From Clostridia bacterium (lineage in GTDB: Bacteria; Bacillota; Clostridia; UMGS1883; UMGS1540): a DNA stretch of 64,000 nucleotides. The notes under the pieces were generated by a model. The model saw only the letters and a list, made by a program, of their open reading frames with translations. It was not told the DNA's origin and made no database searches. The position numbers were made by a program, and so were the translations under genes. Shown here piece by piece: positions 12,790 to 19,558 of this stretch; position 1 is the first letter of the stretch, and the number at the start of each line of letters is the position of its first letter. The stretch lies in NCBI GenBank assembly GCA_017436645.1, contig JAFSCR010000023.1:62001-126000 (forward strand). Direction: 5' to 3'.

Positions 12790-14523
12790 TTGAGATTAAA
12801 TAGAAGAAGGCCTTTTATTATTTTTGCCTGTGTCGGACTTTTAATTGTTATCTTATTAGGTATTTCCGTTGTCCGTGCATACGGAAGTACGAATAAAATC
12901 TGTGCCGGCATTACTGCGGGCGGTGTTTCTATCGGAAATCTTACAACTGAGGAGGCGGCAGAAAAACTTCGTAATCAGCTCGCCAATACAGCTTTCGATA
13001 AACCTATCTATATTGTTTTAGGTGATGTTGAGAAAAAAATAGTCCCCGCAGATTTTCTTGCATCCTTTGAATATGAAAAGACAGCGAAAGCGGCACTGCA
13101 GTATGGTAAAAAAGGAAACTTCTTTTCAAGAATCGGCCAGACGCTTTTGACGGTGTTTAGTAAACGTGATATTCCTATGGAAGTTTCCGTTGATGATCTA
13201 GCATACGAAGAGGCTCTGAATTTCATTATGGACGGTGTTACTGAAAAAGTACAGGAGCACAAATGGGAAATCAGCGACAATAAGCTGATAGTTACTACAG
13301 GTCACCCCGGCCTTTTGCCTGACAAAATGGCTGTTTCTGAGGCTGTTTTAAACACCATTCGCAAAGGAACCTACGATAAAAAGATTGTTTTCGGTTATGA
13401 AGAACGTAAACCTTCTGCACTTTCTGCGGAATACCTTTATGATAAGGTTGCTTCTGAAGCAAAGGATGCTTATTATGCACTGGAAGACGGCAAGGTTGTA
13501 ATTTATGAACATAGCCTTGGTGTGGCGTTTGATAAATCGGTTGCACAGAAAGAAATTGATACACATAAAGGGAATGGGGTTACCTTTGAAATTCCCCTCA
13601 CAATTTCCAGCCCCCGTGTTACAACAGAAGATGTTGAAAGTCAACTTTTTGGTGACACCTTAGGCGAGCATGAAACAAAGTTTAATACAGGAGATGTTGG
13701 CAGAAGCAAAAACATTGCCCTTGCAGCACATAAAATTAATGGCACAATCCTTGCTCCAGGCGAAGTCTTTTCTTATAACGGCGTGGTAGGGGAAAGGAGT
13801 TATAGTGAAGGCTTTGAAACTGCTCATGTTTATGTAAATGGGGAAACGGTAGACGGTGTCGGCGGCGGTATTTGTCAGGTTTCTTCGACGCTTTTCAATG
13901 CAGTTGTTTATGCTAACCTTGAAATTGTAGAAAGAGTAAATCATCAGCTTACGGTTTCATATGTGCCTTTAGGCCGTGATGCAACGGTTGATTATGGTAA
14001 TATTGACTTCCGCTTTAAAAATACAACCGGTCATCCTTTAAAAATTGTTTGCACCGCTGAAAACGGCGTTATGTATACAGGGCTTTTTGGTAAAAAGGAA
14101 GATAAGAGCCTTGAGGTTTCTTTTGAAACCACTGTGATTCGTGAGCTTGATCCGCCGGAACGTAAAAAAGATGATCCCACACTTCCAAAGGGTGAAGAAA
14201 AGGTTGAAAAGCCCGGCTCTTCCGGCTATGTTGTAGACACGTATAAAATTGTAAAAAGAGATGGAAAGGAAACGGAGAGAACATACCTTTGCCGAAGCAC
14301 TTATAATGGTACTTTCCGTGAGATTTTAGTGGGAACAGGGGAAGAAGTTCCTGAAGTGATTCCCGGTGAAGAGAATCCTGAAGAAGGCGGAGAAACGCCT
14401 TCGCCCACAGAATCCTCTGTGCCCACCGAGTCGCCTTCGACTTCTACGCCTAAACCCACACCCTCGGAGGAACCTTCCGAAACAAATGAACCGGATGATG
14501 ACACGTCTGATACAGGTCTCTGA
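12790..14523 (+). CDS. Membrane-anchored VanW-family protein
   Basis: The 577-residue protein starts at a TTG preceded by a G-run ribosome-binding site. Residues about 9-31 form an N-terminal membrane anchor. The outer part has a putative peptidoglycan-binding PG_binding_4-like region (about 45-260) with GVSIGNLTTEEA, then the VanW domain (about 290-430) with NIALAAHKINGTILAPGE and GGGICQVSSTLFNAVVYANL. A short beta region at about 440-510, possibly G5-like, follows, and a Pro/Ser/Thr/Glu-rich tail ends the protein. VanW domains occur in glycopeptide-resistance clusters and many clostridial envelope proteins, but their activity is not settled. No van genes accompany it, so a cell-wall role is likelier than resistance. 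It is followed closely by another exported protein. Confidence 0.9.
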   Translation: MRLNRRRPFIIFACVGLLIVILLGISVVRAYGSTNKICAGITAGGVSIGNLTTEEAAEKLRNQLANTAFDKPIYIVLGDVEKKIVPADFLASFEYEKTAKAALQYGKKGNFFSRIGQTLLTVFSKRDIPMEVSVDDLAYEEALNFIMDGVTEKVQEHKWEISDNKLIVTTGHPGLLPDKMAVSEAVLNTIRKGTYDKKIVFGYEERKPSALSAEYLYDKVASEAKDAYYALEDGKVVIYEHSLGVAFDKSVAQKEIDTHKGNGVTFEIPLTISSPRVTTEDVESQLFGDTLGEHETKFNTGDVGRSKNIALAAHKINGTILAPGEVFSYNGVVGERSYSEGFETAHVYVNGETVDGVGGGICQVSSTLFNAVVYANLEIVERVNHQLTVSYVPLGRDATVDYGNIDFRFKNTTGHPLKIVCTAENGVMYTGLFGKKEDKSLEVSFETTVIRELDPPERKKDDPTLPKGEEKVEKPGSSGYVVDTYKIVKRDGKETERTYLCRSTYNGTFREILVGTGEEVPEVIPGEENPEEGGETPSPTESSVPTESPSTSTPKPTPSEEPSETNEPDDDTSDTGL

Positions 14524-15466: not shown

Positions 15467-15506
15467 AACACACCAATGACTTTTTCTCGTTGGTGTGTTA
15501 TTTTAT
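15467..15506 (+). terminator. Strong hairpin terminator before the four-gene cassette
   Basis: AACACACCAA (15467-15476) pairs perfectly with TTGGTGTGTT (15490-15499) and is followed by ATTTTATAATT. It should end the vanW unit. Its T-tract also contains a TATAAT that may serve the next operon. Confidence 0.85.
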
Positions 15507-15535: not shown

Positions 15536-16318
15536 ATGAAATTAAAAGATAAACTTTGGCTGTGGGGTCAGACGGAAGGTTCTCACCATATAGACGATGC
15601 ATTTGGTCTTCCTGCAAAGAGTCGCATGTCTCCTATGGAAGGGGCATATTATTTCGGCATCAAAAATATGTGTCGTGTTGTTATGCGCGGACTTCCTGCT
15701 CTTCCTTTCGATCAGGACGCCATGGTTCTTGACACGATGGATAATGTTGTCTGGTCCATTGTGGGGGACAGCTCCTGCGGCCTCGTGGATTATACAAGAG
15801 AAATTGCCCGTCTTGCAAAGATTTACACGAATATTTCCGGGGCAATAATGGACGATGTTTTCAGAGATAGCCGTCTTGCACATTTTACGCCCGAAGTTAT
15901 TTCGGGTTACAAAAAGACCCTCAAGGAAAGAGCCGGAAGAGAGCTCCCTGTCTGGGCTGTTGTATATACAAATGAACTTCTCGAAAATCGTAGGCCATAC
16001 CTTGCTGCTTGTGACACTTTGGTGATGTGGACATGGAAGTCTGAAGATCTTGTAAAGCTCGAAGACAATCTTGCAAAGCTTAAAGCATTGGCCCCGGACA
16101 AAAAGATTTATGTCGGCTGTTATATGTGGGACTATGGTAACAAATGTGAAATGTCTGAGGAGAAGATGCAACTTCAGCTTGATACATACTATAAATGGCT
16201 TAAAGAAGAAAAGGTTGAAGGCATCGTTTTTGGTTCCAACTGCTGTGCTGACCTCGGCCTTAAAGCTTCCGACATGGTTCGTGACTTTGTTCGCATCCAT
16301 GGCGATGAAGAAATTTGA
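15536..16318 (+). CDS. Uncharacterised protein, paralogue A of the cassette (possible TIM-barrel enzyme)
   Basis: I do not recognise the family. The 260-residue soluble protein has no signal peptide or membrane segment. It is about half identical to the gene at 17381, with near-complete identity in WLWGQ, GSHH, EGAYYFGI, NMCRVVM, LPFDQDAMV, RRPYLA, GCYMWDY, the SNC-ADLGL region and a C-terminal HGDEEI. Strand-like segments end in polar pairs: AIMDD (Asp106-Asp107), VVYTNE, VMWTW, YVGCYMWDY and IVFGSNC. This is the rhythm of a TIM barrel, so a hydrolase or isomerase is a guess. GAAAGGAG precedes the ATG. It is followed by a phosphotriesterase-family gene after 12 bases. Confidence 0.6.
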   Translation: MKLKDKLWLWGQTEGSHHIDDAFGLPAKSRMSPMEGAYYFGIKNMCRVVMRGLPALPFDQDAMVLDTMDNVVWSIVGDSSCGLVDYTREIARLAKIYTNISGAIMDDVFRDSRLAHFTPEVISGYKKTLKERAGRELPVWAVVYTNELLENRRPYLAACDTLVMWTWKSEDLVKLEDNLAKLKALAPDKKIYVGCYMWDYGNKCEMSEEKMQLQLDTYYKWLKEEKVEGIVFGSNCCADLGLKASDMVRDFVRIHGDEEI

Positions 16319-16330
16319 GGAGGAATACAG

Positions 16331-17368
16331 ATGATTCAAACTGTTCTTGGCCAGATTCGAAAAGAGGATGTTGGGATTACCACAACACATGAACATATAT
16401 TTATTGACCTTACCGGTTTTTTTGCAGAACATCCTGTTCGAGGAATTGATGATCCTGCAACAGCAAAAGTAGCTATGGAAAACCTGGGCATTTTAAATCG
16501 TGACCCTTATGCACTGAAAGATAACTTGCTTATGATGGACCCTAAGGTGCAGAAAAAGGAACTTATGCACTTTAAAAATGCAGGAGGCAGGACGGTCGTA
16601 GATGCCACCACCATCGGCATTCACCGTAGTCCGCTTCTTTTAAAACAGATGGCAATAGAATGTGGGCTAAATGTTATTGCGGGCGCAGGCTATTATGTTG
16701 GAGGGACACATTCGGAAGCGGTGCGAAACATGAGTGCTGATGGCCTTTGTGACAAAATGGTTGAAGACCTCACCAAGGGGATGGATGGAACAGACATAAA
16801 GGCAGGTATAATCGGTGAAATTGGTATAAGCGAGATTTTTGACGATTCGGAACGTAATGTCCTTCGTGGCGCTGCCCGTGCCCAGAAGAAAACAGGGGCG
16901 CCGCTTATGATTCACATAAATCCATGGACTACAAACGGCCTGGAAGCTGCATCTATTGTGTTTTCCGAAGGTGTTTCTCCAGATAGAGTTGCAATTTGCC
17001 ACATAGACGTTGAAAATCGTGAAGATTACATTTTCCGTCTTCTCGACATGGGGCTTTATGTGGAGTTTGATAATTTCGGCAAAGAATATTATGTAGACAG
17101 GGATGTTCGAAATTCCGGTTACGGCCTTTTTGTCCGTGATACGGACAGAGTACGTCTTCTTAAGAAAATGATTGACAGTGGCTATAAAAAACAGATTCTT
17201 TTAAGCTGTGACGTATGCCTTAAAACTTGTCTTCACACCTATGGCGGCTGGGGATATGACCATTTGCTTACAAATGTTGTTCCCATGATGGATGAAGAAG
17301 GTATTTCCATGCAGGATATCAATGATATTCTAGTTAAAAATGCAGGGGAATATTTAGACTGGAAATAA
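16331..17368 (+). CDS. Phosphotriesterase-family metal-dependent hydrolase
   Basis: This 345-residue protein belongs to the phosphotriesterase branch of the amidohydrolase superfamily (COG1735). The binuclear-site residues are all visible: His20 and His22 in TTTHEHIF, Glu163 in GIIGEIG (the bridging position, Lys in phosphotriesterase itself, Glu in several relatives), His195 in MIHINPW, His224 in ICHIDVEN and Asp294 in LLSCDV. TYGGWGYDHLLTNVVPMM is the typical C-terminal block. Relatives hydrolyse phosphotriesters, lactones or sugar lactones, so the substrate is open. It lies between the two paralogues and shares their operon (gaps of 12 bases). Confidence 0.88.
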   Translation: MIQTVLGQIRKEDVGITTTHEHIFIDLTGFFAEHPVRGIDDPATAKVAMENLGILNRDPYALKDNLLMMDPKVQKKELMHFKNAGGRTVVDATTIGIHRSPLLLKQMAIECGLNVIAGAGYYVGGTHSEAVRNMSADGLCDKMVEDLTKGMDGTDIKAGIIGEIGISEIFDDSERNVLRGAARAQKKTGAPLMIHINPWTTNGLEAASIVFSEGVSPDRVAICHIDVENREDYIFRLLDMGLYVEFDNFGKEYYVDRDVRNSGYGLFVRDTDRVRLLKKMIDSGYKKQILLSCDVCLKTCLHTYGGWGYDHLLTNVVPMMDEEGISMQDINDILVKNAGEYLDWK

Positions 17369-17380
17369 GGAGAGATGAAA

Positions 17381-18178
17381 ATGAAATTACGTGATAAATT
17401 TTGGCTTTGGGGGCAGGACGCTGGTTCCCACCACACACCGGGAAATACCTTTAAGCTTCCCGGCAGAAGTCGTATGACGCCTCTTGAAGGCGCATATTAT
17501 TTCGGTATTCCCAATATGTGCCGTGTTGTTATGGTTGGTAAACCCGAACTTCCCTTCGATCAGGATGCCATGGTTTATGACACCATGCAGAACGTAGCCT
17601 GGTCTATTATTGGTGACGGCAGCAGCGGCAGCGTGGAATATATTGACGAAGTTTTGAAACAGGCGAGAAAATACCCCAATATTATGGCAGGCATTTTAGA
17701 TGACTTTTTAAGCGAAGGCAGAATGAAGATTTTCACGCCTGAAAGAGTCCGCGGCTACAGAGAACGCCTTCATAATGAACTGGACAGGAAGTTGGAACTT
17801 TGGACGGTTGTATATTCCTCTGAGCTTACCGAAGAAAGAAGACCCTATCTTGCAGAATGTGATGTTTTAACTCTCTGGCCACGTTTTGAAAGGGATGTTC
17901 TGACTCTGGAAGAAGATTTCGCAAAACTTTATGACCTTTCCGACGGCAAGAAGAAAATCATGGCAGGGTGTTATATGTGGGATTACCACGACAAAAATGC
18001 CGTTTCCGTTTCTCTCATGGAAATGAAACTGGAACAGTACAGAAAATGGCTTCACGAAGGCTATATTGAAGGCATCATTTTCTGTTCAAACTGCATTGCA
18101 GATTTAGGACTTGCTGCAGTTGACTATACTCGTGAATGGATTCGTCAGCATGGCGACGAAGAAATCATTGAGAAATAA
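17381..18178 (+). CDS. Uncharacterised protein, paralogue B of the cassette (possible TIM-barrel enzyme)
   Basis: This 265-residue protein is clearly a paralogue of the gene at 15536, sharing WLWGQDAGSHH-type, EGAYYFGI, NMCRVVM, LPFDQDAMV, AGCYMWDY and HGDEEI segments. I chose the ATG at 17381 because AAGGAGAG lies about seven bases upstream; the ATG at 17375 abuts that site. It shares the Asp-Asp pair (ILDD) after the central strand and the hydrophobic-strand rhythm of a TIM barrel. Conservation is highest in the first 80 residues and the last 80, suggesting a shared active site with diverged substrate contacts. The family is unknown to me. Confidence 0.6.
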   Translation: MKLRDKFWLWGQDAGSHHTPGNTFKLPGRSRMTPLEGAYYFGIPNMCRVVMVGKPELPFDQDAMVYDTMQNVAWSIIGDGSSGSVEYIDEVLKQARKYPNIMAGILDDFLSEGRMKIFTPERVRGYRERLHNELDRKLELWTVVYSSELTEERRPYLAECDVLTLWPRFERDVLTLEEDFAKLYDLSDGKKKIMAGCYMWDYHDKNAVSVSLMEMKLEQYRKWLHEGYIEGIIFCSNCIADLGLAAVDYTREWIRQHGDEEIIEK

Positions 18179-18193
18179 CAGGAGGTACATGAT

Positions 18194-19357
18194 ATGGGTT
18201 TTATTCCCGATATAGAATTTAAGGAACGTATTACAAAACTTCAGGCCATCATGGCAAAAGAGGGCTATGATATTATGATGGCTTACGGCAACGAAGCAGA
18301 ACCCCAGTTTGTCCGTTATCTATCCGATTACTGGCCGTCTTTTGAAACAGCAGGTGTTCTGGTACCCGTCGAGGGCGAACCGCTTCTTTTAATTGGACCT
18401 GAAAGCTACACTTATGCCGCCGATCGCTCCAGAATCCCCGAAATTCGTCTTCTGAAAGCATTTCGTGAATCTTCTGAACCGGAATACCCCGGCAAAAAAC
18501 TTTCCACATTCAACGAGGTTTTTGACGAAGTGCTGAAAGGAAGAAAGTTTACAAAGTTTGGTGTGGCAGGGCTTCCGCTTGTAACCATCGGTGTTTATGA
18601 TGCATTGAAAGAGGCGCTTGGTGACATACCTATTGTAAAGGCGGACGATCTTGTTTCTCAGCTCCGCATGATTAAAACGGAAAATGAGCTTGTTTGTATG
18701 CGTGAAGCGGCTGAAATTACGAGAAAATCTTTTGACTATGTTCTCGAAAATATCCGCCCCGGAATGACGGAAACACAAGTTGTTGGACTTGCACTTTCCA
18801 AAATGCACGAACTCGGCGCAGAACGTGAAAGCTATCCGCACTGGGTACTTACGGGCGAAGGGAGTAATCAGGCAATCAGCCGTCCTCGTCAAAAAGTAAT
18901 TCGGCCCGGTGATATGACCATGATTCAGATTGGTGCCCGTGTTGCAGGTTATGCATCTTCCATTGGTCGTCCCGTTGTTTTCGGGAAGGCAACGGCTGAG
19001 CAGAAAGCAATTATTGAAGCAGGGTATGTAGGGCAGAACGCTGTTCTTGGATTTATGAAGGCAGGACTTTGCGCGGGGGATGTTGCCCGTCACTATGAAA
19101 AGGTTCTTTCCGACATCGGCTTTGGTGACCATCTTCTTTATGGCCCTTGCCACGGTAACGGCATGATGGAAGGAGAGGCACCGTGGATTGAAAATAATTC
19201 CACATGGATTCTTAAAGAAAACATGACGTTCTGCCTTGACGTTTTCCTGGGAAATAATAAGACGAAGACAGGCCTTCGCATGGAAGATGTTATCCGCATT
19301 ACAAAAGACGGCACAGAAAATCTGACCCACTATCCGCAAAAACTTTTTGAACTTTAA
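18194..19357 (+). CDS. Creatinase/M24-fold protein lacking most metal ligands
   Basis: The 387 residues show a creatinase-type N-terminal domain (about 1-155) and a pita-bread M24 domain (about 160-380). The usual five metal ligands Asp-Asp-His-Glu-Glu appear as Gln245 (MIQIGA), Ser256 (ASSIGR), His320 (PCHGNG), Asp349 (FCLDVF) and Glu364 (LRMEDV). The second His of the HGxGxxxHE pattern is Gly327. Metal-dependent aminopeptidase P or prolidase activity is therefore unlikely. Creatinase itself has this fold without metals, so C-N hydrolysis of a small molecule is a reasonable inference. It is the last gene of the cassette, 15 bases after paralogue B, with AGGAGG upstream. Confidence 0.82.
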   Translation: MGFIPDIEFKERITKLQAIMAKEGYDIMMAYGNEAEPQFVRYLSDYWPSFETAGVLVPVEGEPLLLIGPESYTYAADRSRIPEIRLLKAFRESSEPEYPGKKLSTFNEVFDEVLKGRKFTKFGVAGLPLVTIGVYDALKEALGDIPIVKADDLVSQLRMIKTENELVCMREAAEITRKSFDYVLENIRPGMTETQVVGLALSKMHELGAERESYPHWVLTGEGSNQAISRPRQKVIRPGDMTMIQIGARVAGYASSIGRPVVFGKATAEQKAIIEAGYVGQNAVLGFMKAGLCAGDVARHYEKVLSDIGFGDHLLYGPCHGNGMMEGEAPWIENNSTWILKENMTFCLDVFLGNNKTKTGLRMEDVIRITKDGTENLTHYPQKLFEL

Positions 19358-19435: not shown

Positions 19436-19558
19436 GTAGCAAGCAGGGCAACGCCCTCACCGTATCGTCTTGATACGCATACGGTTGATATTTTTACCGG
19501 TTTATAAGGCGGTATTGCTTGCGCAATGCCGCTTTAATTTTTTTTGGAGGTGCTGTAT
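19436..19558 (+). promoter_or_regulatory. Structured 5' leader of infC (L20-leader-like)
   Basis: The roughly 120-base untranslated leader contains a small hairpin AGGGC/GCCCT (about 19446-19458). A longer helix has ACCGTAT (from about 19460) pairing with ATACGGT (ending near 19486). A terminator hairpin follows at 19506-19535. In Bacillus, L20 binds an equivalent leader and causes premature termination of infC-rpmI-rplT. The gene order and hairpin position here fit the same autogenous control. I have not matched it to a covariance model. Confidence 0.7.
19506..19545 (+). terminator. Attenuator terminator in the infC leader
   Basis: A 13-pair stem (19506-19518 with 19523-19535, two G-T pairs) with a four-base loop TTGC, followed by AATTTTTTTT. 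The T-run ends directly at the infC ribosome-binding site, the geometry of a conditional terminator. Confidence 0.85.

Follow-up and report, generated by a model that had tools for sequence, protein, structure and literature searches.

What do two related proteins do on either side of a phosphotriesterase-family gene, and why does one genome retain both? We asked this of copies A and B in a 64,000-nt window, the whole stretch of Clostridia contig JAFSCR010000023.1 that was analysed, and found that A and B are members of a real, uncharacterised and scattered family whose fold is already known. The two are long-separated paralogs that would most likely act as small glycoside hydrolases. Coordinates are given in Table 1, where PTE denotes the phosphotriesterase-family amidohydrolase.

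Table 1. Features of the window, and family members lacking the Asp pair at other loci (prefixed L).
Feature	Position	Strand	Description
Terminator-like hairpin	15467-15499	+	just upstream of the four-gene operon
Copy A	15536-16318	+	260 aa; TIM-barrel family protein; Asp pair D106-D107 after strand 4
PTE	16331-17368	+	345 aa; PF02126
Copy B	17375-18178	+	267 aa; TIM-barrel family protein; Asp pair D109-D110
M24-fold gene	18194-19357	+	387 aa; PF00557 and PF01321
infC	start 19544		after the M24-fold gene; recognised by eye from translation
L069_8	L069:7198-7971		Asp-pair-less copy; beside a DD-bearing copy or PTE/M24 (see text)
L071_4	L071:6813-7586		Asp-pair-less copy; beside a DD-bearing copy or PTE/M24 (see text)
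L067_4	L067:4454-5005		Asp-pair-less fragment

The gaps between A, PTE, B and the M24-fold gene measure only 12, 6 and 15 bases from their coordinates, and this spacing, together with the hairpin upstream of A, suggests a single transcription unit. The hydrolase between the copies had been called a phosphotriesterase, as its PF02126 match confirms (E = 1.2e-72), and B lies where the original prediction placed it, although the proposed start at 17381 is the second methionine, two codons inside the gene. A and B are the only family copies in their own genome (94% complete), which also carries nagA about 3 kb upstream of A (TIGR00221, 234.3 bits versus a cut-off of 225.65) and gave no GH20 or GH84 matches when searched for both. 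The 64-kb window yielded zero Rfam matches, including at a strong hairpin that resembles a terminator, carries a T run and lies in the leader immediately 5' of infC (19505-19536). Between 28001 and 64000, GC skew passes from about 0.13 to near-zero or variable values, and GC content is lower in places.

BLASTP alignment of A and B gave 144 identical residues out of 262 (55%, E = 2e-107 for one comparison, far beyond chance), in agreement with the predicted divergence to about half identity, and both proteins contain the shared blocks WLWGQ, EGAYYFGI, LPFDQDAMV, GCYMWDY and HGDEEI listed beforehand. Their closeness within one operon would fit a recent, redundant duplication, but a tree constrained to hold window A and B as one clade is worse by 113 log-likelihood units (p-AU 0.00024), and window B is 89% identical to the B of genome G002; this explanation is already refuted within our sample and we give it almost no credence. 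In our tree, which like the conservation counts below comprises 43 rows (omitting fragments L087_6, L014_3, L014_4, L067_1 and L067_4 and the identical row L072_7), window B groups with G002 B (support 100/100) and window A groups with A and the third paralog of G001 and G002 (99/98). The grouping of window A with that third paralog is weak (93/62), and a single clade of A orthologs is neither supported nor rejected (p-AU 0.21). As judged from this tree, A and B do not group by species and their split precedes species divergence within the genus. In both A and B, differences are far more frequent at third codon positions than at the other two, indicating that each is under purifying selection, and this selection bears out the view that both copies have been retained. 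Window A is 67-70% identical to relatives that are 88% identical to each other, and in the window lineage it has diverged much faster than the other genes of the operon, B (89%), M24 (86-90%) and PTE (78-79%).

Retention of both copies had been attributed to two related substrates or to a heteromer. An obligate A-B heteromer is not supported, because the congener G001 has A, PTE and M24 with a PTE-M24 gap of just about 20 bases at B's place, and no other B; this genome is 77% complete, with B's expected place itself sequenced. Because the A and PTE of G001 and G002 resemble one another more closely than they do those of the window, B was most simply lost in G001. The same gene order, the single copy found in many loci, and the Asp pair kept by both window proteins also speak against any A-B heteromer or a regulatory or specificity subunit role for B, which we consider very unlikely. 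B and its G002 ortholog depart from otherwise conserved positions at the barrel mouth (T166/W167 to P/R and G201/N202 to H/D), and from these sequences it is possible that A and B act on two related substrates.

We then compared the family with characterised ones. Against Pfam, copy A produced only a sub-threshold match to GH85 (PF03644, endo-beta-N-acetylglucosaminidase; residues 142-216, 19.8 bits, below the cut-off of 22.2), the sole GH85 trace among 16 members scanned, and B produced nothing meaningful. NCBIfam returned nothing meaningful for either copy, and PDB sequences returned no meaningful E-value for copy A or the family profile. The proposal of a new family is thus upheld with respect to Pfam, NCBIfam and PDB sequences; an earlier description may exist in CAZy/dbCAN or under a family name in the literature. 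Relatives were found at 15 loci from Clostridia, Lentisphaerota, Latescibacterota, Poribacteria, Zixiibacteriota and Armatimonadota, and, with the own genome counted each time, 9 of 60 genomes near that of the window and 16 of the 391 in its class carry the family, a patchy distribution. A viral origin was considered and rejected, as six candidate stretches in viral contigs held zero relatives. At L072:2288-3082 and 13625-14419, a whole gene set is present as identical inverted copies on one contig, which is probably an assembly palindrome. Although the Pfam and NCBIfam releases searched contain no model of it, the family is well conserved across gut Clostridia, Lentisphaerota and several little-cultured phyla, and assigning it would name one enzyme activity across all these groups.

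The AlphaFold2 model of A, built with 16 sequences, contains eight strands (residues 7-11, 44-47, 70-76, 100-105, 139-144, 161-165, 190-196 and 229-233; pLDDT 94.3, pTM 0.92), as does the model of B (pLDDT 93.0). A and B are accordingly modelled as TIM (beta/alpha)8 barrels, as hydrophobic-strand spacing had hinted, with the Asp-Asp pair immediately following strand 4, at the end of the hydrophobic strand where it had been noted. Among the best 50 VIA-align matches of each model, nearly all are glycosidases or glycosidase-like barrels (Z about 15-17, rmsd 3.0-4.0, 218-246 residues aligned), including GH2, GH18, GH113, GH164, GH5 and the putative fucosidase 4h41. Rows less than 1 apart in Z count as tied, so VIA-align singles out no family, and the absence of GH84 entries among the best 50 rows for A or B does not exclude a GH84 likeness. 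The best Foldseek matches of A and B are diffuse and include non-glycosidase barrels.

Conservation among the 43 aligned members is concentrated at Asp106 (41/43), Asp107 (40/43), Tyr144 (42/43), Asp160 (43/43) and Trp165 (41/43), followed by Tyr200 (39/43) and Asp199 (37/43); both residues of the Asp pair are kept in 40 members, and no Lys appears among columns at least 85% conserved. GH2, GH5, GH113 and GH164 are 4/7 retaining families. Their presence among the top VIA-align matches (best 50), along with the mostly conserved Asp199 after strand 7, would fit a glycosidase that works without neighbouring-group participation on sugars without a 2-acetamido group, using Asp107 as acid/base and Asp199 as nucleophile or base. 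However, position 199 is Asn, His or Tyr in 5 of the 40 members that keep both Asp. Such changes are hardly to be expected at a nucleophile and speak against that role for Asp199, and we judge this mechanism decidedly unlikely.

By analogy, the family's mechanism may instead be like that of GH84 (PF07555, O-GlcNAcase/beta-N-acetylglucosaminidase), which likewise has an adjacent Asp pair after strand 4, an aromatic-Asn/Asp-aromatic motif after strand 7 and Ser-Asn after strand 8. In hOGA, according to PMC10636738, the first residue of the pair D174/D175 sets the orientation of the acetamido group and the second acts as acid/base. We compared the family profile with a GH84 profile drawn from our genome sample, in which 18 GH84 loci supplied 12 rows of more than 100 aa for a first comparison and 11 re-extracted domains for a second (with GH18, GH20 and GH85 controls of 11, 8 and 2 rows). 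GH84 was the best of nine profiles, with weak scores of 36.0 (12 rows) and 30.7 (11 rows), Prob 11-32, and E-values of 0.0005-0.003 that represent a single, uncorrected comparison. The other profiles scored 27.2 (GH18), 24.0 (GH85), 24.0 (M24), 21.1 (PTE), 20.0 (GH3), 17.8 (GH5), 16.8 (GH20) and 14.8 (GHL6), so that the GH84 score is close to that of GH18 and even the non-TIM control M24 reaches 24.0. None of 150 column-shuffled (14.7 +/- 2.5) and none of 150 block-shuffled (18.6 +/- 3.2, maximum 29.1) GH84 profiles reached 30.7. The alignment is roughly in register, pairing DD with DD, strand-6 WTW with MTG and strand-7 MWDYG with WWNYP.

This profile resemblance is suggestive but below significance, and several features set the family apart from GH84. 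None of the 16 members scanned matched PF07555 (E up to 0.1), and three divergent members alone gave no GH84 signal (score 16.5). The family has no conserved counterpart of hOGA K98, the Lys that salt-bridges the first Asp (PMC10636738), it carries Asp199 where GH84 seems to carry Asn, and its protein is one short domain with no signal sequence seen by eye. We did not file the family under GH84 because of the low Prob values, the missing Lys and the lack of signal in divergent members. GH85 matched one member in 16 with a profile score equal to that of the non-TIM control, and GH18 chitinases, second-best by profile and represented by 3ian and 9i2p among the Foldseek matches, differ in that the family lacks both a Pfam match and DxxDxDxE, the GH18 motif. 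GHL13 (PgaB), a further Asp-Asp candidate, was left out with one sub-threshold sequence in 196 genomes.

We tentatively favour A and B as cytosolic glycosidases with an Asp-Asp pair that would function as in the GH84 O-GlcNAcases, a reading we consider plausible, if short of probable. In A, D106 would position or polarise the 2-acetamido group and D107 would serve as acid/base, with a sugar site presumably lined by Tyr144 (strand 5), Trp165 (strand 6), Trp198-Asp199-Tyr200 (after strand 7) and Ser234-Asn235 (strand 8). The operon's metal amidohydrolase and M24-fold protein would then act on the remainder of a small glycoconjugate taken up by the cell. We infer this activity and substrate class from the barrel with its conserved Asp pair, the glycosidases found by VIA-align, the GH84 profile, glycan-related neighbours at other loci, and nagA in a genome without GH20 or GH84 matches; the cytosolic location follows from the lack of a visible signal sequence. 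The weak profile, missing Lys, Asp199 in place of Asn and diffuse Foldseek matches weaken the case, as do the PTE and creatinase-like genes, which suit amide or ester chemistry as much as glycans.

The neighbouring genes bear on that last point. The two metal-binding Asp residues of metallo-M24 enzymes, which we take to lie in the DxG...SDxTR region, are absent from the window M24 protein and from 9 of the 10 cluster members; the exception, L069_4, is a separate gene and has both. On these assumed positions the M24 proteins other than L069_4 resemble creatinase or ectoine hydrolase rather than metallopeptidases, and by sequence the window protein is creatinase-like. The window PTE shares PF02126 and a visible HxH, Glu, His, His, Asp metal-ligand pattern with PTER and related proteins, its nearest solved sequences are 3k2g (a resiniferatoxin-binding, phosphotriesterase-related protein) and 9efa, and every NCBIfam equivalog score is far below cut-off. 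Mouse PTER hydrolyses N-acetyltaurine. The structure of a resiniferatoxin-binding protein served as guide for PTER in PMC11374699, which gives H26, H28 and E169 as metal ligands. Across 38 non-window loci, creatinase-like M24 genes accompany the family in 9, PTE in 6 and ASRT in 5; these counts are lower bounds because several loci end at contig ends. One locus is split over two contigs of the same genome, L086 and L087. The counts leave out a cluster of AraC neighbours (c1), as some members are antisense frames to the family gene and Pfam confirms only L013:7138-8004.

This core linkage to PTE, creatinase-like M24 and ASRT genes, the 3k2g/PTER relationship and the high Foldseek rank of non-glycosidase barrels would suit a barrel lyase, isomerase or amidohydrolase that joins the two hydrolases in the catabolism of a small nitrogen-containing or acylated metabolite. 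We regard such a role as somewhat unlikely, since the 43 aligned members conserve only an Asp pair, without the His/Lys cluster that metal or Schiff-base enzymes have, many family loci hold glycosidase genes, and ASRT proteins are predicted sugar binders (PMC2739507). Genes at other loci include GH3, GHL6, DUF4838 (GH163-type), heparinase-like, melibiase, GalT/GalK, sugar-isomerase-like and ASRT genes. DUF4838 is listed as GH163 in PMC9870897, and one GH163 strips LacNAc antennae from N-glycans according to PMC10154615.

Some family members lack the Asp pair altogether. The three such copies come from two genomes; two have a DD-bearing copy as neighbour and the third lies close to a contig end beside PTE and M24, and a separate member, L067_2, has Asp-Thr at the pair position. 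L069_8 and L071_4 form one clade (100/100) and come from genomes of two families, and L069_8 and L067_4, both in G161, differ with a dN/dS of about 0.28, so that this branch looks maintained. These copies speak for the subunit idea, and in the Asp-pair-less lineage, though not in the window, they may serve as subunit or pseudoenzyme. The copies that keep the pair and those without it offer a natural test of the importance of these residues. Combined with the preferred GH84-like reading, they would describe a new family of glycoside hydrolases that use an Asp-Asp pair for neighbouring-group catalysis, lie in a recurring PTE/creatinase-like operon and repeatedly duplicate into pairs, with one branch in which an active copy is accompanied by a conserved pseudoenzyme without the Asp pair; we consider this full picture rather unlikely as a whole. 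Separately, the third paralog of G002 (L063:1-14001) and G001 (L064:1-13001) lies among genes for large SLH/CBM proteins and for a GHL6 protein, possibly a cell-surface glycan locus.
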